A stretch of 64,000 nt of DNA, taken from Intestinibaculum porci. GTDB lineage: Bacteria; Bacillota_I; Bacilli_A; Erysipelotrichales; Coprobacillaceae. Both the position numbers and the translations under genes were made by a program. The notes under the pieces are model-generated. The model saw nothing but the letters and a program-made list of their open reading frames with translations. It was not told the DNA's origin and did not search any database. The number at the start of each line of letters is the position of its first letter. Position 1 is the stretch's first letter. Below are positions 19,592 to 29,806 of the stretch, piece after piece. The stretch is from contig NZ_AP019309.1 of NCBI RefSeq assembly GCF_003925875.1, positions 1,178,001-1,242,000 on the forward strand, given 5' to 3'.

Positions 19592-20527
19592 ATGGCTATA
19601 CCAACATATAATGAATTTTATCGGGCTGTTCTTGACTGTTTAAATGATGGTGAGGTGCATCGCTCAAGGGAGATTAATAATTACTGTGCTGATGTTTTCC
19701 ATTTGACGCCAGAAGAGCGCAGTGCTTTATTACCTATTAACAGACAAACTGTGTTGTCAAATCGTGTCGGCTGGGCACGTACTTATTTAAAAAAGGCACA
19801 TTTGATTGAATCACCAGCAAGAGGGAAGTTTAAAATTACCGAAGCAGGGGTTAAGGCTGTTTCGGATCCTTCATTAGTGATTGATAATGATTATTTAGAA
19901 ACATTCCAGTCATTTAGAGAATTCTTTAACTCTTCAAAAGAAGAAAAAGAAGAGGTCGATTCTCCAGAAGTTCAAACGGAAACCGTGATGGAAAGCACAC
20001 CGATTGAGACAATGGATGAAGCTTATAAAAAGTTAACCTCACAATTGGCTGATCAATTATTAGCGAATATTTTAGCGCAGGATCCATATTTCTTTGAACA
20101 GTTAGTGATGGATTTGTTAGAAAAGATGGGGTATGGCGGTGAGTTAAGTGAACCATCAGAAGTAACATCCAAATCAGGTGATGAAGGCATTGATGGAATT
20201 ATTCGTCAGGATGCCTTAGGTTTTGATAAAATCTATGTTCAGGCTAAGAAATGGGCGCCTGAGCGTAGTGTCGGTTCGCCAGATATCCAGCAGTTTGCTG
20301 GCGCTTTGATGGGAAAAGGTGCTAATAAAGGTTTATATATTACAACTTCTCATTTTAGTGATAAAGCGAAAGACTTTGTCGATAAGCATATGACTGCTAA
20401 GATTGTTTTGGTAGATGGAGAAATGTTAACATCGTTAATGATCAAATATAATTTAGGCGTCAGCTTAGTGCACAGTTATGAAATCAAGAGAGTAGATACG
20501 GATTACTTCAATAACGATAATGAATAG
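19592..20527 (+). CDS. mrr: Mrr-type restriction endonuclease
   Basis: 311 residues. The N-terminal Mrr_N winged-helix domain (about 1-95: NRQTVLSNRVGWARTYLKKAHLIESPARGKF, given here by positions 50-80) is followed by a linker and a C-terminal Mrr_cat nuclease (about 165-290). The catalytic PD-(D/E)xK variant is visible as DEGIDG followed by YVQAKKW (Gln in place of Glu/Asp, usual in Mrr). Type IV enzymes of this kind cut methylated foreign DNA. It lies directly upstream of a type I restriction-modification operon, with a palindrome between them. Confidence 0.9.
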   Translation: MAIPTYNEFYRAVLDCLNDGEVHRSREINNYCADVFHLTPEERSALLPINRQTVLSNRVGWARTYLKKAHLIESPARGKFKITEAGVKAVSDPSLVIDNDYLETFQSFREFFNSSKEEKEEVDSPEVQTETVMESTPIETMDEAYKKLTSQLADQLLANILAQDPYFFEQLVMDLLEKMGYGGELSEPSEVTSKSGDEGIDGIIRQDALGFDKIYVQAKKWAPERSVGSPDIQQFAGALMGKGANKGLYITTSHFSDKAKDFVDKHMTAKIVLVDGEMLTSLMIKYNLGVSLVHSYEIKRVDTDYFNNDNE

Positions 20528-20590: not shown

Positions 20591-23140
20591 ATGAATAAAA
20601 ATCAATTAGCAGCGAAGATATGGGAATCCGCTAATAAGATGCGATCAAATATCGAAGCTAATGAATATAAAGATTATATTTTAGGGTTTATCTTTTATAA
20701 ATACCTATCAGAAAAAGAAGAGAACTGGCTCTTAAAAAGAGATTATACACCGGAAGATATTAAGGAATATGTGAATGAAGATGATCCGGAAACTGTGCAG
20801 AGTGCTCAGCAAAGCTTAGGGTATTTTATTGCTTATGAACACATGTTCTCAACATGGGTAAAGAGCGGTTCGGATTTTTCTGTAGATAATGTCAGAGTCG
20901 CTTTATCATCTTTTTCAAGATTAATTTCACCATCTCATAAAAGAGTCTTTGAAGGAATCTTTAATACTTTAGAGACTGGGTTAAGTAAGCTTGGGAAAGA
21001 TACGAAATCACAGACCAAAGCTGTTCGTGATTTGATCCATTTAATTAATGAAATTCCCATGGGATCGCGTAAACAGGATTATGATATGTTAGGGTTCATC
21101 TATGAATTCCTGATTGAAAAGTTTGCGTCAAATGCTGGCAAAAAAGCAGGTGAGTTCTATACTCCACATGAAGTATCCCTATTGATGTCTGAAATTGTGG
21201 CAGATCATTTAAAGGATCGTAATGAAATTAAGATCTATGACCCAACTTCGGGTTCTGGTTCATTATTAATTAACATCGGGGCTTCGGCGGCTAAATATAT
21301 GCCTGATGCCAATCGTATTCGCTATTATGCGCAGGAGTTGAAATCTAATACGTATAACTTAACAAGAATGAATTTGGTTATGAGAGGGATTATTCCTGAT
21401 AACATTGTGACAAGAAATGCGGATACGTTAGAAGAAGACTGGCCTTATTTTGATGAGTCAGATCCAGCAGCTACATACGAACCATTATATGTTGATGCAG
21501 TCGTTTCAAATCCCCCATATTCCCTGCAATGGGATCCTAAAGGCAAAGAAAATGATCCACGATATGCCAGATATGGTGTAGCACCTAAATCAAAGGCTGA
21601 TTATGCTTTTTTACTGCATGAGTTATACCATTTAAAGCCTGATGGAATTATGACTATCGTATTACCTCATGGAGTCTTATTTAGAGGTGGTGAAGAAGGT
21701 AAGATCAGAACAAATCTAATTGAAAATGATAATATTGAAGCCATTATTGGCTTACCAGCTAATATCTTTTATGGAACAGGTATTCCCACAATCATTATGG
21801 TTTTACGTCAGAAAAGAGAAGACAATAATGTATTAATTATTGATGCTTCCAAAGGTTTTGAAAAGGTTGGTAAGAGTAATAAGCTACGTGCCTGTGATAT
21901 TAGAAAGATTGTAGATACGGTGACACATAAGTTGACCATTGATAAATATTCAAGATTAGTATCTAAAGATGAAATTCGTCAAAATGATTATAACTTGAAT
22001 ATTCCTAGATATGTTGATTCATCTGAAGAAACAGAAACATGGGATCTCTATGCTTCTATGTTTGGTGGTGTACCTGAATATGAGTTAAATCGGTTAGCGG
22101 ACTATTGGAAAGTATTTCCTAGCTTAAAGGATGCATTGTTTACAATGAATCATGGGTATGGAAAATTAAAGGTTTCTGATATTAAAGGTACAATCTTTGA
22201 TAATGTAGATGTTCAAAAATTCATTGAAGATTACAAGAATAAATTTTCTCACTTTGATGAAACATTAGAACATGAACTTATTGATCAAGCTGAAACTGTT
22301 TCAACGGTAAAAGAAAAGGATGAAATTTCAAGTGATCTTTTATCACGTTTTGAAGATATTTCGTTAATTGATAAATACAAGGCATATGAAGCCTTTGACA
22401 AGGGATATGAAGAAATATCAGGAGATTTAGAGATTATTCAGTCGGAAGGAATGGACTGTGTAAAAGCTGTTGATCCTAACATGGTTCTTAAGAAAAATAA
22501 AGAAGTACAGGAAGGCTGGAAAGGACATATTTTACCGTTTGACTTGGTACAAAATAATTTATTGAAAGATGAATTAGATACAATATCTAAACAGGAAGAA
22601 CGTCTTCAGGAGATTCCATCTGAGTATTCAACTTTGTTAGATGAATTATCAGAAGATGATAAAGAAACGATCTCTGAAGCTTTAAATGAAGAAAACGATG
22701 CATTTGTATTTAAGAATTTTAAGAAAGTCATCAAGGTGATTGATGATCAAAATCTTAAAGATGTTTTGAAGAAAGCTGATCAGTTTAATAAAGAAGAAAA
22801 GGAATTAAAATCATCTATAAAAAAAGCTAATCAGGAATTACATTTAAAGACAAGAGATACCATTATGTCTTTATCAAATGAAGAAGTGAAACAGCTATTA
22901 TTCATAAAATGGATTCAGCCTATTACCAATGCAATTAACGAATTACCAAATGAATTGTTAAAAGATTTTGCGTCTCAAATCAAGAATCTTTCTGATAAGT
23001 ATAAGGATACTTATGAAGATATTGATCAAGAGATAAAGAATACTGAAAAAGAACTTGTGAAAATGTTAGGAGATCTTACTGGTGATGAAGCTGATATGGC
23101 TGGAATAAGACAATTACAAAAGATGTTAGGTGGTGATTAA
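20591..23140 (+). CDS. hsdM: Type I restriction-modification system, methyltransferase subunit HsdM
   Basis: 849 residues, longer than the usual 500-550. The HsdM_N helical domain (1-140) is followed by an N6-adenine methyltransferase core. Its S-adenosylmethionine motif DPTSGSGSLL lies near residue 217 and the catalytic NPPY (VSNPPYSLQW) near 306. Residues about 500-849 form a long charged, coiled-coil-like tail not found in short HsdM proteins, as in the larger HsdM subfamily. AAAGGAG lies ten bases before the ATG. It works with HsdS for modification and with HsdR for cutting. Confidence 0.95.
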   Translation: MNKNQLAAKIWESANKMRSNIEANEYKDYILGFIFYKYLSEKEENWLLKRDYTPEDIKEYVNEDDPETVQSAQQSLGYFIAYEHMFSTWVKSGSDFSVDNVRVALSSFSRLISPSHKRVFEGIFNTLETGLSKLGKDTKSQTKAVRDLIHLINEIPMGSRKQDYDMLGFIYEFLIEKFASNAGKKAGEFYTPHEVSLLMSEIVADHLKDRNEIKIYDPTSGSGSLLINIGASAAKYMPDANRIRYYAQELKSNTYNLTRMNLVMRGIIPDNIVTRNADTLEEDWPYFDESDPAATYEPLYVDAVVSNPPYSLQWDPKGKENDPRYARYGVAPKSKADYAFLLHELYHLKPDGIMTIVLPHGVLFRGGEEGKIRTNLIENDNIEAIIGLPANIFYGTGIPTIIMVLRQKREDNNVLIIDASKGFEKVGKSNKLRACDIRKIVDTVTHKLTIDKYSRLVSKDEIRQNDYNLNIPRYVDSSEETETWDLYASMFGGVPEYELNRLADYWKVFPSLKDALFTMNHGYGKLKVSDIKGTIFDNVDVQKFIEDYKNKFSHFDETLEHELIDQAETVSTVKEKDEISSDLLSRFEDISLIDKYKAYEAFDKGYEEISGDLEIIQSEGMDCVKAVDPNMVLKKNKEVQEGWKGHILPFDLVQNNLLKDELDTISKQEERLQEIPSEYSTLLDELSEDDKETISEALNEENDAFVFKNFKKVIKVIDDQNLKDVLKKADQFNKEEKELKSSIKKANQELHLKTRDTIMSLSNEEVKQLLFIKWIQPITNAINELPNELLKDFASQIKNLSDKYKDTYEDIDQEIKNTEKELVKMLGDLTGDEADMAGIRQLQKMLGGD

Positions 23141-23141
23141 T

Positions 23142-24401
23142 ATGTCTAAAAAACCTAAGATTCGCTTTAAAGGTTTCACTGATGATTGGGAACAGCGTAA
23201 GTTGGGTGATTTAGTATATTTCCTGCAAAATAATACTATTTCTAGAGCCGAACTATCATTAGATGATGGTGAGATTTTTGATATACATTATGGTGATATT
23301 TTGATTAAATTTAATGAATGTTTAGATGCAAGTATGCACACATTACCAGCTATTAAAAATGTAAAATATTTATATAAATTTACTGAGTCATTTCTCAAGG
23401 CTGGAGACGTTGTTATGGCGGATACGGCGGAAGATGAAACCGTTGGAAAATGCATTGAATTATGCAATATAGAGAATAGGAATATTGTTGCAGGATTACA
23501 TACAATACCTATGAGACCATATTCAAAATTTGCCAGAGGATATTTAGGATTTTATATGAATACAAATATTTATCACGATCAATTATTGCCTCTAATGCAG
23601 GGATCAAAGGTCACTTCAATTTCTCGAGCAACAATTTTGGAAACATATATAAAATTTCCTGCTGATATTAAAGAACAAAAATATATTGCGGATTATTTTT
23701 TACGCATTGACCATCTTATTACCCTTCATCAACGTAAGTATGAAAAGTTGCTAAAAATCAAAAAATCTATGCTAGAAAATATGTTTCCAAAAAATGGGGA
23801 AATGAAACCTAAAATCCGGTTTAAAGGTTTTACTGATGATTGGGAACAGTGTAAGCTCGCGGATATTGTAGGTGCGACTTATGGCGGAGGCACACCAGCA
23901 ACGACTAATGAAGCTTTTTGGAATGGTAATATTCCCTGGATTCAGTCGTCAAATACTATTGAAGGGCAATTGTTCGATATGGATGTGAAAAAGCATATTT
24001 CGAGAGATGGACTAACTCATTCTGCAACTCAAATGATACCGGGAAATTCTATAGCTGTAGTAACTCATGTTGGCGTTGGAAAGCTTGTTTTTATGCCTTA
24101 TTCCTATACTACAAGTCAAGATTTCATTTCGCTGTCATATTTGAAATGTGATCCTCAATTTCTGTGCTATGCGTTATATAGAAAATTGCAAGAAGATTTA
24201 CATATTGTGCAAGGATCTGCAATAAAGGGAATCACAAAGGAAGACTTGATGATAAAGCAACTTGTTATACCAAAGATTGGGGAGCAGGAGCAAATTGCAA
24301 ATACATTAGAGTCACTAGATCACCTTATTACCCTTCATCAGCGAAAACTAGAAAAATTAAAAAAACTAAAGAAATCGATGCTAGAAAATATGTTTGCTTG
24401 A
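23142..24401 (+). CDS. hsdS: Type I restriction-modification system, specificity subunit HsdS (two target domains)
   Basis: 419 residues from the ATG one base after the hsdM stop; an in-frame upstream ATG at 23130 lies inside hsdM. Two target-recognition domains (TRD1 about 1-205, TRD2 about 215-419). Each begins with KIRFKGFTDDWEQ and ends with the central conserved helix DHLITLHQRK followed by K(S)MLENMF. This repeated framing DNA (WEQRKLG at 23186-23206, LHQR at 23715-23736) recurs in two further cassettes downstream. HsdS chooses the bipartite DNA target and bridges two HsdM. Confidence 0.93.
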   Translation: MSKKPKIRFKGFTDDWEQRKLGDLVYFLQNNTISRAELSLDDGEIFDIHYGDILIKFNECLDASMHTLPAIKNVKYLYKFTESFLKAGDVVMADTAEDETVGKCIELCNIENRNIVAGLHTIPMRPYSKFARGYLGFYMNTNIYHDQLLPLMQGSKVTSISRATILETYIKFPADIKEQKYIADYFLRIDHLITLHQRKYEKLLKIKKSMLENMFPKNGEMKPKIRFKGFTDDWEQCKLADIVGATYGGGTPATTNEAFWNGNIPWIQSSNTIEGQLFDMDVKKHISRDGLTHSATQMIPGNSIAVVTHVGVGKLVFMPYSYTTSQDFISLSYLKCDPQFLCYALYRKLQEDLHIVQGSAIKGITKEDLMIKQLVIPKIGEQEQIANTLESLDHLITLHQRKLEKLKKLKKSMLENMFA

Positions 24402-24543
24402 TCTAATAAATTTTTAATCTAGATAGTTGTTAAATTATTATGGGGATTTGCTGAATAATACAATTACTGGGTTTAAGTAGTTGTATTATTTGTGATCAAT
24501 ATAAGATTTTAGCCGGCTTTTAATTAAGAATTTTTAATAGATT

Positions 24544-25050
24544 ATGACAATATCTTGGGAACAGCGTAAGTTGGGAGATTTATTGAATGAGACCAGAGAA
24601 AAGACCAGTGTAGAAGACGAAGATACATTACTTTCTTGTGCCATTGATGGAATGTTTCTTAACTCGGAGTTGTTTAGTCACTTTAGAGGTTCATCTAATA
24701 TTGGCTATTTGAAAGTAAAAAAGAATGATTTAATTTTATCAGCACAGAATTTACATTTAGGAAATTGTAATGTCAATTTACGCTTCGAACATGGCATAAT
24801 ATCGCCTGCTTACAAGGTTTATGAATTGATAAACTGTGATCCATTATTTATGCAAGCATGGGTTAAACAAGACAAGACAAAAGATTTCTTCTTAAAGGCA
24901 TCGACTGAAGGTGCAAGTGCTTGTAGAAAAAATATAGTTTGGGAAGAATTATATAAGCTGGAATTACCTGTTCCTATAATAAACGAACAGGTAAAAATTG
25001 GAGCGTTTTTTCAAAACCTCGACAACCTTATCACCCTTCATCAACGTATG
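24544..25050 (+). pseudogene. Promoterless HsdS target-recognition cassette (TRD3)
   Basis: About 169 residues of a single HsdS half, from SWEQRKLGDL to NLITLHQR. No ribosome site or HsdS N-terminus precedes it (142 bases of AT-rich spacer after hsdS). After LHQR the frame runs out of homology into the next cassette and stops at 25182. The ends are the same short conserved stretches as in hsdS (24555-24575 and 25027-25048), so it looks like a silent cassette available for recombination rather than a gene on its own. Confidence 0.75.
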
Positions 25051-25073
25051 TGTGTTTATAAATATAATATAAT

Positions 25074-25643
25074 ATGCAATACACTTGGGAACAGCGTAAG
25101 TTGGGAAATCTTGTTACAATTGAGCGTGGTGGATCGCCACGCCCAATTGATGCCTATATTACTGAAGCATCGGATGGCTTGAACTGGGTAAAGATTGGAG
25201 ATGCGCCTGAACAGGGAAGATACATTACACATACTAAAGAAAAAATTAAACTTTCCGGACTTTCAAAAACTAGACAGGTTTTTCCTGGAGATTTAATTCT
25301 ATCTAACTCGATGAGCTTTGGAAAACCTTATATCATGGGAATTTATGGATGTATTCATGATGGTTGGTTATTAATTCGTAACAACCAAAATGCGTTTGAT
25401 TTAAAATTTCTTTGCCATATGCTTGGCACTGAACAGATGCTTATACAATATCGACGACTTGCAGCAGGAAGTACTGTGAATAATCTCAATAAGGAGCTTG
25501 TTTCAAATGCTCGTATAAATGTTCCTAATAAGGTGGAACAAGAAAAAATAGGAGTTTTTTTAGAGCTCGTTGATAATGCTATTACCCTTCATCAACGTGA
25601 GATAAAAGAATTAAAAAAGATAGAAAGAGAGGAGAATTATATA
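25074..25643 (+). pseudogene. Promoterless HsdS target-recognition cassette (TRD4), in frame with hsdR
   Basis: About 190 residues of another HsdS half, from YTWEQRKLGNL to ITLHQREIKELKK. It has no ribosome site at its start and uses the same framing repeats (25085-25105 and 25579-25598). Its frame continues without a stop into hsdR, so the open frame spans 25074-28760. HsdR has its own ribosome site and ATG at 25644, so TRD4 is read as a silent cassette and not as a fixed fusion. Confidence 0.72.
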
Positions 25644-28600
25644 ATGAAATTTGATAAAGAAGCTGATTTTGAAGAAGCTGTTATTACTGCATTACAGAAA
25701 AATGGCTGGGAAGATGAAGTTATTCGTTATCCTACTGAAAAAGATCTTATTCAAAATTGGGCTAATATTCTATTTGAGAATAATAGAGGTATTGATCGAT
25801 TAAATGGTCAGCCATTAATCGAAGATGAAATGCAGGAATTATTAGATCAAATTAGAGATTTACGTTCTCCTATGGCTTTAAATTCTTTTATTAATGGGAA
25901 ATCAGTCTCTATTACAAGAAAGAATCCTAATGATACATTACATTTTGGAAAAGAAGTGAGTCTAAAGATCTATGATCGTAATGAAATTGCAGCCGGACAA
26001 AGTCGTTATCAGATTGTCCAACAGCCTTTGTTTCCTAGACATGAAAAAGTATTACGGGATAGAAGAGGAGATTTGATGTTACTAATTAATGGGATGCCAT
26101 TATTTCATATCGAATTAAAGAATAGCGGTATTCCTGTTTCTGAAGCTACAAATCAGATTACAAAATATGCGCATGAAAAAGTGTTTACTGGCTTATTCTC
26201 TTTAGTTCAGGTCTTTGTAGCGATGAATCCAGAGGAAACAGTTTATTTCGCAAATCCTGGACCTGATGGTAAGTTTAATTCTGATTTCTATTTCCATTGG
26301 GCGGATTTTAATAATGAACCAATGAATGATTGGAAACTGATTACTTCTAGATTGTTATCTATTCCTATGGCACATCAGTTAATTGGCTTCTATACGGTAG
26401 CTGATAGTACTGACGGTATTTTAAAAGTCTTACGTAGTTATCAGTATTATGCTGCGAGTGCGATCTCTGATCGTGTTGCAAAAAAGGATTGGGAAGATCA
26501 TAAACAGTTAGGCGGTTATGTATGGCATACAACAGGGTCTGGTAAAACAATGACATCCTTTAAATCAGCCCAGCTGATTGCGGAATCTCATGATGCTGAT
26601 AAAGTTGTGTTTTTAATGGATCGTATTGAATTAGGGGTACAGTCATTAAGCGAATATCAGAACTTTGCAGATCATAAAGAAGATGTACAAGGTACTGAAG
26701 ACACATATGCTTTGATTACGAAATTAAAGTCTGATGATCCTAAAGACACGCTGATTGTCTCTTCTATTCAAAAGATGAGTAATATTAAAGAAGATGCAAA
26801 AGAAAAGTTATGTTACGATGATTTGCAGACAATTCAGGATAAACGATTAGTGTTTATTATTGATGAATGTCATCGATCAACTTTTGGAGAGATGTTACTG
26901 ACAATTAAGAATACATTTCCGAGAGCTTTATTCTTTGGTTTTACTGGAACGCCAGTCTTTAAAGAAAATGAAAAGATTTTATCCACAACATCTGATATCT
27001 TTGGTGATGAATTGCATCGCTATAGTATAGCAGATGGGATTAGAGATGGTAATGTATTAGGCTTTGATCCAACGATGGTCATGGTTTATAAAGATCGAGA
27101 TGTCAGAAGGGCAGTCGCTCTTGAAAAAGCGAAAGCTAGCAGTGAAAAAGAAGCTATTAAGGATCCTAAAAAGAATAAAGTTTATTATCATTATATGAAT
27201 GATGTACCAATGGCTGGTGATGCGGATACTGCAGGCATAGAAGATTTCTTTCCTAAAGTGAATTTTGAAACCGATGAATATCAGCGAATGGTTGTTGAAG
27301 ACATTTTGGATAACTGGGGTCGTTTAAGTCAGTATGGTCAGTTCCATGCAATCTTTGCAACTTCAAGTATTCCAGAAGCAATTCGTTATTATCGTAAGTT
27401 TAAGGATATGTGTCCACAGCTTCATGTGACTTGTCTTTTTGATGCCTCTATTGATAATAAAGGTGGTCAAAAGAGTATTGATAAAGAAGATGGCTTAGCT
27501 GAGTTAATTCAAGATTATAATGATACTTTTGGCCAAACTTTCAGTATTGGTACTTATGGATTATTCAAAAAAGATGTATCGAGTCGTTTAGCCCATAAAG
27601 GGACTTATGTTCATTTGAAAGAAAAGGACCAGCTTGATCTCCTGATTGTAGTGAATCAGATGCTTACAGGTTTTGACTCTAAGTATGTGAATACCCTTTA
27701 TTTAGACAAGGTTTTAACCTATGAACATCTTATTCAGGCGTTTTCTCGTACGAACAGATTATATGATCGTCATATGAAACCATTTGGCTCTATTCGGTAC
27801 TATCGTTATCCGCATACGATGAAGAGAAATGTAGAAAATGCCATGAAACTTTATTCAGGTGATCGACCAAGAGGGTTATTTGCTTATCATCTTTATGATA
27901 ATATTAATCAAATGAATAGATATTTTAGTGATATTAAGAGCTTATTTGAAGCGGACCATATAGAGAACTTTGAGTGTTTACCGGATGATGTTGAAAGCAA
28001 AAAGAAGTTTTCTAGCCTCTTTAAACGGTTCTCGATGTATTTTGAAGCCGCAAAAATTCAAGGAATGAAGTGGGAACAAAAGATTTATGAAACGGAAGGA
28101 AAATCAATAACTTTAGTGCCTACGGAAAAGGATTACGATATTCTTTTACAGCGTTATAAGGAATTAGGAAAAGCGGATCCGGGGGATGGCGGTGAAGATA
28201 TCCCATATGATATTGATCCATATTTAACTGAACTGGATACAGGAAAAATAGACAATGATTATATGAACATGCGCTTTAAGAAATGGCTTAAAATGTTGAG
28301 TCAGGCTAATGTTTCTGAACAGGAGCGTATTCATACCTTAGAAGAATTACATAAATCATTTGCCTTTCTGTCTCAGGAAGATCAGGGCTTTGCCACGTTA
28401 TTCCTGCACGATGTCCAAAATGGTGATGTTCAGCTTATTCCTGGTAAAACTTTTAGAGAGTATATTGCTGAATATGGTTCAAGAGCATTAAATGATGAAG
28501 TCCATTATGTAGCAGAGGCTTTTGGCTGCTCTGAAGAAATGCTTAGAAAGATGTTGAATGAGAACATTACAAAAGAAAATATTAATGAATATGGTCGTTT

Positions 28601-28760
28601 AGATGCTTTGAAGCAAACAGTTGATAAAAAGAAAGCACAAGTGTTTATTGAGGAAGTAAGAGGCACTAAATTGCCATTATTTAGGGTCAACAATGCGGTT
28701 GATCAGATGCTGACAAACTTTATTACTTCGGGAGGAAAAGAATTCCCGCATGTAGCATAA
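25644..28760 (+). CDS. hsdR: Type I restriction-modification system, restriction subunit HsdR
   Basis: 1038 residues from the ATG at 25644 (AGAGAGGAG nine bases upstream), the usual HsdR length. The N-terminal nuclease domain has the ExK end of its PD-(D/E)xK site in FHIELKNSG (about residue 155). Two RecA-like motor domains follow, with Walker A TTGSGKTMT (about 295) and Walker B IIDECHRS (about 405), then FGFTGTP (motif III) and AFSRTNRLYD (motif VI). The C-terminal helical domain contacts the M2S core. It translocates DNA and cuts it when sites are unmethylated. Confidence 0.95.
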   Translation: MKFDKEADFEEAVITALQKNGWEDEVIRYPTEKDLIQNWANILFENNRGIDRLNGQPLIEDEMQELLDQIRDLRSPMALNSFINGKSVSITRKNPNDTLHFGKEVSLKIYDRNEIAAGQSRYQIVQQPLFPRHEKVLRDRRGDLMLLINGMPLFHIELKNSGIPVSEATNQITKYAHEKVFTGLFSLVQVFVAMNPEETVYFANPGPDGKFNSDFYFHWADFNNEPMNDWKLITSRLLSIPMAHQLIGFYTVADSTDGILKVLRSYQYYAASAISDRVAKKDWEDHKQLGGYVWHTTGSGKTMTSFKSAQLIAESHDADKVVFLMDRIELGVQSLSEYQNFADHKEDVQGTEDTYALITKLKSDDPKDTLIVSSIQKMSNIKEDAKEKLCYDDLQTIQDKRLVFIIDECHRSTFGEMLLTIKNTFPRALFFGFTGTPVFKENEKILSTTSDIFGDELHRYSIADGIRDGNVLGFDPTMVMVYKDRDVRRAVALEKAKASSEKEAIKDPKKNKVYYHYMNDVPMAGDADTAGIEDFFPKVNFETDEYQRMVVEDILDNWGRLSQYGQFHAIFATSSIPEAIRYYRKFKDMCPQLHVTCLFDASIDNKGGQKSIDKEDGLAELIQDYNDTFGQTFSIGTYGLFKKDVSSRLAHKGTYVHLKEKDQLDLLIVVNQMLTGFDSKYVNTLYLDKVLTYEHLIQAFSRTNRLYDRHMKPFGSIRYYRYPHTMKRNVENAMKLYSGDRPRGLFAYHLYDNINQMNRYFSDIKSLFEADHIENFECLPDDVESKKKFSSLFKRFSMYFEAAKIQGMKWEQKIYETEGKSITLVPTEKDYDILLQRYKELGKADPGDGGEDIPYDIDPYLTELDTGKIDNDYMNMRFKKWLKMLSQANVSEQERIHTLEELHKSFAFLSQEDQGFATLFLHDVQNGDVQLIPGKTFREYIAEYGSRALNDEVHYVAEAFGCSEEMLRKMLNENITKENINEYGRLDALKQTVDKKKAQVFIEEVRGTKLPLFRVNNAVDQMLTNFITSGGKEFPHVA

Positions 28761-28814
28761 CCTTCCAGTTGCTTATTACTCATTATGGTAAGTCTGATAT
28801 ATTGGAGGACAACT

Positions 28815-29738
28815 ATGGAAGATAAAACTACACAATTGTTCTGTGATTATTATGAACAATGGGTCAAAGTTTATAAAGAAGGAGCAATTCGCTCAGTAAC
28901 ATTACAAAAATACGAAATGACATTAGGATGGCTGAGAAAGCTGGTACCAGATGTCCGCATGTGCGATATGAATCGTATTACTTATCAGAAACTGATTAAT
29001 GACTATGCTTTATCTCATGAACGACAGACGACAATGGATTTCCATCATCAGATCAAAGGGGCTATTTTAGATGCTGTTGACGATGGCTACATTGAACGTG
29101 ATCCCACAAGAAAAGTTATTATTAAAGGGAAACCGCCACGAGATAAGAAAGTCAAATACTTAAACCAATTTGAATTACACACTTTGTTAAAAAGCTTAAC
29201 GCTTGGGGCAGAGATTAACTGGGATTGGTTTATTCTGTTAGTGGCGAAAACTGGTATGCGTTTTTCAGAAGCTTTAGCGATTACCCCAGAAGATTTTGAC
29301 TTTTCTCATCAGCTCCTCGTGATCAATAAGACATGGGATTATAAAGAAGGCACAGGATTTATGCCGACTAAAAATAAATCATCAGTTAGAAAAATTCAAA
29401 TTGACTGGCAGATTGTTGTTCAGTTTTCGGAACTGATTAAAGATTTACCAAGGAATGATCCTATTTTTGTCAAAGATAAACCTATTTATAACTCAACGGT
29501 TAATGATATTCTTGAACGTTATTGCAAAAAGTTAAATATTCCCGTTATTTCTATTCATGGATTGCGCCATACGCATGCATCTTTACTTTTATTTGCTGGT
29601 GTATCAATTGCTTCAGTAGCGAGAAGATTAGGGCATGCCAGTATGACAACAACGCAAAAAACATACTTACATATTATTCATGAATTAGAGAATCAGGATG
29701 TCGATATTGTCATGAGAGCAATGTCTAATTTAAATTAA
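28815..29738 (+). CDS. Tyrosine recombinase linked to the type I RM locus
   Basis: 307 residues from the ATG at 28815, which follows GGAGGA; the longer frame start at 28785 has no such site. The N-terminal core-binding domain (SAM-like, 1-105) is followed by a catalytic domain with Arg in TGMRFSEAL, HGLRHTHAS, GHASMTTT and Tyr in TYLHII. It resembles phage-type integrases often found beside hsdS genes, where they invert or exchange target domains. Here cassettes lie in direct orientation, so its substrate is not certain. It ends in a terminator at 29778. Confidence 0.88.
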   Translation: MEDKTTQLFCDYYEQWVKVYKEGAIRSVTLQKYEMTLGWLRKLVPDVRMCDMNRITYQKLINDYALSHERQTTMDFHHQIKGAILDAVDDGYIERDPTRKVIIKGKPPRDKKVKYLNQFELHTLLKSLTLGAEINWDWFILLVAKTGMRFSEALAITPEDFDFSHQLLVINKTWDYKEGTGFMPTKNKSSVRKIQIDWQIVVQFSELIKDLPRNDPIFVKDKPIYNSTVNDILERYCKKLNIPVISIHGLRHTHASLLLFAGVSIASVARRLGHASMTTTQKTYLHIIHELENQDVDIVMRAMSNLN

Positions 29739-29777
29739 TGACTGTTAATGACTTACCAGATGAGTTTAAGATTTATG

Positions 29778-29806
29778 AGAGAGCGGACACGCTCTCTTGT
29801 ACTTTT
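29778..29806 (+). terminator. Terminator of the RM operon
   Basis: AGAGAGCG / CGCTCTCT stem (29778-29785, 29790-29797), loop GACA, then a T-rich tail. It separates the recombinase gene from the SprT-like gene. Confidence 0.7.

Follow-up and report, generated by a model that had tools for sequence, protein, structure and literature searches.

Shuffling of target recognition domains (TRDs) at direct repeats has already been published for a Type I restriction-modification (RM) system. According to the sections of the report drawn on here, the tvr/SpnIV locus of Streptococcus pneumoniae carries direct MPR and TER repeats with a common 11-bp core, forms circular intermediates and shuffles its TRDs in a TvrR-dependent manner (PMC6265443). 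For Listeria monocytogenes ST8, the part of the paper cited reports strains that differ by inversion of hsdS; the inversion sites are agcttgggaacagcgt and ctatcgctcttcatcagcgtaagttagat, and a tyrosine integrase lies between them (PMC4783014). A survey of phase-variable Type I systems in REBASE is described, in the excerpt used, as a search for inverted repeats only (PMC7394358). The head-to-tail variant seems little described in these sources, and our literature searches on this kind of locus, which were not made by organism name, found no paper on the locus considered here. This locus lies in Intestinibaculum porci, which lives in the gut. The sequence studied, referred to as the window, is the whole stretch of 64,000 nt (NZ_AP019309.1, positions 1,178,001 to 1,242,000) analysed from a complete 3,212,924-bp (3.21 Mb) genome. 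The HsdM, HsdS and HsdR subunits of a Type I RM system occur together in it (Pfam, PADLOC). It is probable that TRD cassettes are exchanged at two kinds of short recombinase site and that the specificity of this system is diversified in this way, a reading to which we give a probability of roughly 0.7.

There is good support for a Type I RM locus that shuffles its TRDs and carries both silent cassettes and a recombinase of its own. It comes from the conservation of the sites, from the family to which the recombinase belongs, from precedents in which rearrangement was observed, and from purifying selection acting on one of the silent cassettes.

Cassettes and recombination sites in the window

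The genes are arranged in the order Mrr-type gene, hsdM, hsdS, c3, c4, hsdR, tyrosine recombinase and terminator-like hairpin, and everything from hsdM to the recombinase is on the + strand. The expressed specificity gene hsdS (23142..24401, +, 419 aa) has two Methylase_S stretches, TRD1 in slot 1 and TRD2 in slot 2, where a sequence-only reading of the same DNA had placed two target domains. The silent TRD cassettes c3 and c4 reach 27.7 and 47.9 bits for Methylase_S, both above the Pfam cut-off of 22 bits. Each consists of a single Methylase_S domain, with WEQRKLG at the start and LITLHQR at the end, and lacks the head and tail of HsdS. The open reading frame (ORF) of c3 runs from ATG 24544 and that of c4 from 25074, and the two overlap in different frames. 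No Shine-Dalgarno (SD) sequence is visible upstream of either, as the sequence-only reading had said of its two half-genes, and the promoter scan listed no promoter-like site on the + strand from hsdS to c4.

The same short repeats frame all four TRDs, which are bounded by TTGGGAACAGYGTAAG at the start and ACCCTTCATCARCG at the end. The 5' edges all read TTGGGAACAG[C/T]GTAAG. The 20-nt repeat TTGGGAACAGCGTAAGTTGG is exact at 5' site 1 (23186..23205), 5' site 3 (24555..24574) and 5' site 4 (25085..25104), and 5' site 2 (23840..23859) is a variant carrying CAGTGTAAGCTCG, with one mismatch in the 15-mer (CAGTG). The 3' edges all read ACCCTTCATCA[A/G]CG, as ACCCTTCATCAACGTAAG at 3' site 1 (23721..23738), ACCCTTCATCAGCGAAAA at 3' site 2 (24330..24347), ACCCTTCATCAACGTATG at 3' site 3 (25033..25050) and ACCCTTCATCAACGTGAG at 3' site 4 (25584..25601). 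All eight sites are on the + strand. The 5' positions proposed earlier were exact; those proposed for the 3' repeats (23715 and its counterparts) mark a CTTATTACCC run a few bases before the sites. With at most one mismatch, TGGGAACAGCGTAAG occurs four times in the genome, only at these TRD edges and always forward, and control hits were zero. No inverted TRD is present at the locus and no reverse-strand 5' site anywhere in the genome; the direct order of the cassettes was thus described correctly from the start.

In the family consensus, the two site types have a common core, CA[A/G]CGTAAG, which both carry in one and the same frame (Gln-Arg-Lys). The 3' cores of the window are CAACGTAAG, CAGCGAAAA, CAACGTATG and CAACGTGAG, three of which depart from this consensus, varying after CA[A/G]CG. 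The cassette unit would be the DNA between a 5' site (GGGAACAG, then CGTAAG) and a 3' site (CTTCATCA[A/G], then CGTAAG). Measured between the site cores, the units on the + strand are TRD1 (23196..23732, 537 bp, in frame), TRD2 (23850..24341, 492 bp), c3 (24565..25044, 480 bp) and c4 (25095..25595, 501 bp), all multiples of three in length. The expressed hsdS would thereby offer two slots, and c3 and c4 would be silent spares downstream in direct orientation.

The tyrosine recombinase (28815..29738, +) matches PF00589 at 2.8e-22 over positions 2-168 of 172. Its start is ATG 28815, with a clear SD (GGAGG), and not 28785, which begins the longest ORF. It is the last gene of the operon, as had been noted, and is followed by a terminator-like hairpin (29774..29801, +) identified by consensus match only.

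It is this adjoining recombinase that probably recombines the sites. With every site in the same orientation, recombination would lead to excision or insertion and not to inversion. The eight sites allow 28 single direct crossovers; all were enumerated, and in none does the resulting HsdS combine two TRDs, one of them new, with the native C-terminal tail. The products were HsdS unchanged or with a shortened linker, fusions to HsdR, and proteins that had only one TRD or had lost the normal tail. Direct deletion was rejected as the switch on this ground. The sequence-only reading, which took the locus for a phase-variable RM system, is thus upheld as to TRD shuffling and not as to exchange by deletion, at least in one step. 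When a cassette is replaced at both its 5' and 3' sites, the ORF remains intact and frame and tail are kept in 16 of 16 combinations (396-434 aa). Since single crossovers are unproductive and two-site replacement is intact throughout, cassette exchange seems the likeliest route: an excised cassette circle would be inserted at one slot, or a sister copy converted, and the resident cassette removed, with frame, linker and C-terminal tail kept. Each slot could then in principle be filled by any of the four TRDs, so that as many as 16 HsdS proteins would be possible. Circles are presumed here in preference to conversion, and this strain may be switching at present.

Sites, recombinase and cassette movement in related loci

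A scan of one genome per species gave 100 loci with a relative of the recombinase, of which 80, with recombinases 60-82% identical, were kept. They span Firmicutes, Bifidobacterium, Atopobium, Pasteurellaceae, Moraxella and others, and hsdS TRDs adjoin the recombinase in nearly all of those with enough flank. Where the protein motif could be recognised at a TRD 5' edge (169/258 edges analysed), TGGGAACAGCGTAAG is almost fixed. Of the 137 WEQRK edges, 106 carry exact GAACAGCGTAAG, whereas local codon usage predicts 4.5. At the 3' site, Leu is written CTT in 124 of 126 cases (23.7 expected) and Arg CGT in 100 of 121 (38.1 expected). The site repeats therefore appear to be more than protein homology, with synonymous positions fixed in recombinase-linked loci.

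Site and recombinase are also associated across genomes. Among 395 genomes of the class, 13 have the exact 15-mer, 20 the recombinase and seven both; the exact site is thus present in 7/20 genomes with the recombinase versus 6/375 without it (Fisher p = 4e-7). Several of the genomes with the recombinase only are small, and their recombinase is interrupted by TGA codons, as in Mycoplasma-like codes. Both L. monocytogenes sites, compared with the sequences printed in the cited part of the report, match the two sites of the window (PMC4783014). Pneumococcal CreX/PsrA has a different core, ATTATGGGAA, in the excerpt used (PMC6620402).

The orientation of TRDs was parsed in 84 loci, namely 79 of the 80 kept, four of six further regions and the window; L001-L010, L015, L092 and L096-L103 were left out as short duplicates or fragments. 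An active hsdS could not be identified in 33 of the 84, mostly short contigs, which are hence undecidable. In the 51 decidable loci, the extra TRDs are inverted only in 21, of both orientations in 15, direct only in 13 (window included) and absent in 2. Head-to-tail order thus appears to be a recurrent state and not an oddity of this genome. The recombinase tree, also of 84 rows (L015 included; L027, with a split recombinase, excluded), contains a 19-row clade with inverted twin hsdS genes (SH-aLRT 95) and a 62-row half-gene clade (98), and all 12 direct-only rows fall in the latter. The twin-gene clade together with three basal rows holds 39 two-TRD and 6 one-TRD ORFs, and the rest 34 two-TRD ORFs, 101 one-TRD ORFs and one three-TRD ORF. 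The window, L095, L036 and L068 have compact silent arrays in head-to-tail order, where about 35-45 bp (counted by eye) separate 3' from 5' sites; the array in L024 is wider. In L095 (6471-8135), a complete genome of the same family, a single open frame of 666 aa, placed between hsdS and hsdR, comprises three silent TRD cassettes.

Cassettes have changed place in other loci with the same sites. In Veillonella, a 515-bp cassette is found, at 94% identity, in slot 1 of L028 (5190-5704) and in slot 2 of L029 (5934-6448). Likewise, one 464-bp cassette (94%) occupies slot 1 in one Paenibacillus species and slot 2 in another (L038/L044). Both pairs come from direct-only loci; the cassette edges are at the sites, and linkers and tails are unmoved. 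Within single loci, cassette copies that are 100% identical and end exactly at the sites were found in L050 (500 bp) and L043 (515 bp), both in the same orientation, and in L040 (491 bp) in the opposite one. L051 has a within-locus copy of 535 bp at 99.4% identity. Whether these are true copies or assemblies of a mixed population, cassettes would have changed place in either case. Cross-locus TRD pairs of at least 60% identity comprise 56 between slots 1 and 2, 26 within slot 1 and 35 within slot 2, of 251 pairs, and the picture is similar within either recombinase clade. A memory of position was looked for and none was seen, different-slot pairs being about as frequent as same-slot pairs. As a separate observation, the two TRDs of one hsdS in L020 (4444-5607) share 97% identity, so that a symmetric recognition sequence would be expected.

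A wider generalisation can be offered tentatively, and we would sooner doubt it than rely on it. The recombinases of the 62-row clade among the 84 rows (Firmicutes, Bifidobacterium, Pasteurellaceae, others) might run an integron-like TRD system, moving single in-frame cassettes between 5' and 3' sites of common core, building the compact silent arrays and filling either hsdS slot through circles or copying.

Elsewhere, a search of IMG/VR returned three recombinase loci and no HsdM relative. The plasmid collection holds 64 records with the recombinase family, mostly from L. salivarius. In the badger-isolate plasmids examined, the family adjoins adhesin genes and not hsdS, and they offered no strain series for the hsdS-type locus. 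On the L. salivarius plasmids L178 and L179 (NZ_CP114511.1 and NZ_CP114516.1, 9805-11919), a member of the family (55%) has two facing genes of the GbpC/Spa adhesin type as neighbours. A segment of 2,115 bp there is inverted in strain S35 relative to S40, at 100% identity, with 29-bp inverted ends and without the hsdS core site. This relative therefore drives, or marks, an adhesin inverton lacking that core.

Alternative explanations and the rest of the locus

In one alternative the recombinase is not the driver: cassettes would move because TRD flanks undergo gene conversion or homologous recombination, with or without RecA. Such domain movement (DOMO) is described for H. pylori at flanking repeats in the part of the paper cited (PMC3077401). 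Pneumococcal shuffling at long repeats continues without the recombinase, as the excerpted reports state (PMC6620402, PMC6265443), and the cassettes found twice within one locus are copies and not just swaps. The repeats of the window, however, are only about 20 nt long and show strong synonymous conservation, site and recombinase co-occur, and the shortest pneumococcal repeat is strictly recombinase-dependent in the section cited (PMC6620402). We hold this explanation to be unlikely, though deserving of attention.

A second alternative regards c3 and c4 as dead relics of past duplications or transfers which are no longer exchanged, the repeats being merely conserved protein motifs. The lack of a promoter or SD, the out-of-frame overlap of c3 with c4, the remoteness of all relatives of c3 and the off-consensus sites speak for it. 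Selection on the cassettes bears on this directly. The nearest relative of c4 is L017:1395, a single silent TRD in front of the recombinase in Lachnospiraceae hRUG869. The comparison gives 0.19 non-synonymous substitutions per site (dN) and about 2.2 synonymous ones (dS, saturated), with a dN/dS of about 0.09. Among six silent-silent pairs, dN/dS is 0.03-0.11 in five, and one pair with saturated dS has no value. Low ratios between silent cassettes imply that these are at times read by selection, and c4 appears to be under purifying selection. Both silent frames are open, the synonymous site positions are fixed across phyla, and cassettes relocate in other direct-only loci, all of which argues against relics; we consider the idea improbable.

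That c4 is expressed rather than silent, as an HsdS-HsdR fusion or as a half HsdS (half HsdS proteins can dimerise), is very improbable: its frame is open through hsdR (ORF 25074-28760), but hsdR has its own strong SD and ATG 25644, and such a fusion frame occurs in just 1 of 19 single-TRD/hsdR neighbour pairs. The c4-HsdR fusion was rejected as a design at that frequency and taken as chance, and so were the fusion frames between single TRDs and the recombinase (5/36).

Several points weigh against cassette exchange by the recombinase, the reading we prefer. The structure of the window is known from one assembled genome. TRD flanks are homologous protein and cassettes spread horizontally, and the codon test makes no correction for shared ancestry. 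Edges with an incomplete protein motif were left out of the analysis (89/258 at the 5' side, 111/258 at the 3' side). The exact 15-mer is lacking in 13 of the 20 recombinase-bearing genomes, and six genomes have the site but not the recombinase. The identical within-locus copies may be assembly products of a mixed population. The relatives of c3 reach only about 33%, so the selection result covers c4 and not c3. Finally, TRD2 may move poorly because 5' site 2 and 3' sites 2-4 deviate from the consensus.

The remaining features of the locus can be given briefly. The methyltransferase gene hsdM (20591..23140, +, 849 aa; Pfam N6_Mtase 2.4e-100 and HsdM_N; PADLOC MTase_I) ends one base before hsdS starts. 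Between hsdS and the silent array lies a spacer of 142 nt (24402..24543, +), whose RNA folds into a single nested hairpin (z -5.4). A role as attenuator or as boundary element is conceivable; a repeated element was ruled out, as the spacer is single copy in the genome. No gene lies between c4 and hsdR (25644..28760, +), which encodes the restriction subunit with an EcoR124_C domain (Pfam) and has the clear SD GAGAGGAG. The gene after the recombinase is SprT-like. Just upstream of hsdM, an Mrr-type methyl-dependent restriction gene (19592-20527) raises the question of how a changing methylation pattern is tolerated. The same genome has a second specificity-type ORF (G000:C1:1649250-1650947) of 614 aa with three Methylase_S matches and without recombination sites.

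Comparison with known systems

If the direct-only loci do switch, TRD shuffling would be commoner than has been counted; the same pair of sites would serve in several phyla, and either slot could take any TRD. Such loci, 13 of the 51 decidable, would escape surveys of inverted repeats like the one excerpted above (PMC7394358), and the shared core offers a simple sequence handle for finding them. The locus in the window is probably able to swap the DNA sequence that is marked and cut.

Among known systems, pneumococcal tvr/SpnIV and H. pylori DOMO come nearest. The tvr/SpnIV locus, as set out in the cited sections, resembles the window in being a Type I RM system whose TRDs all face the same way, with direct repeats of two kinds that have a common core, a locus-encoded tyrosine recombinase and silent TRDs between hsdM and hsdR (PMC6265443). 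By the same account, tvrATR is part of the array and leaves with the excised circle, and tvrR is controlled by a phd-doc-like pair and an attenuator. In the window, by contrast, the recombinase comes after hsdR and no toxin-antitoxin (TA) pair is found in the TRD array. Because of these two differences, it was not classed as a tvr locus. The N- and C-type TRDs of tvr keep their position in that description (PMC6265443), whereas TRDs occur in either slot among the relatives of the window.

The cod/ivr (SpnIII) locus and the Listeria ST8 hsd inverton likewise shuffle hsdS TRDs by a locus-encoded tyrosine recombinase (PMC4948785, PMC7096588, PMC4783014). The Listeria repeats are the two sites of the window, whose recombinase shares 60-82% identity with the recombinases found in inverting and mixed loci. 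In both known loci hsdS has inverted copies, and the switch is an inversion. An inverted copy is absent from the window, which for this reason was not classed as an inverton.

In DOMO, S genes have, like hsdS of the window, the layout x-(TRD1)-y-x-(TRD2)-y, with the same x and y repeats flanking both TRDs. The TRDs of DOMO genes move between slots; this movement takes place between alleles of one species, and the portion cited mentions no dedicated recombinase and no array of silent cassettes (PMC3077401). Among the relatives of the window locus, the same TRD is seen in both hsdS slots across species. Mycoplasma faucium hsdS' and hsdS'' are, like c3 and c4, 5'-truncated tandem copies in the same orientation, with 28-bp repeats; the excerpted account describes no linked recombinase and places the repeats at overlapping gene ends (PMC11062135). 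Judged by its sequence, the window would thus work like tvr/SpnIV, with the anatomy of DOMO and the sites and recombinase family of inverting hsdS loci.

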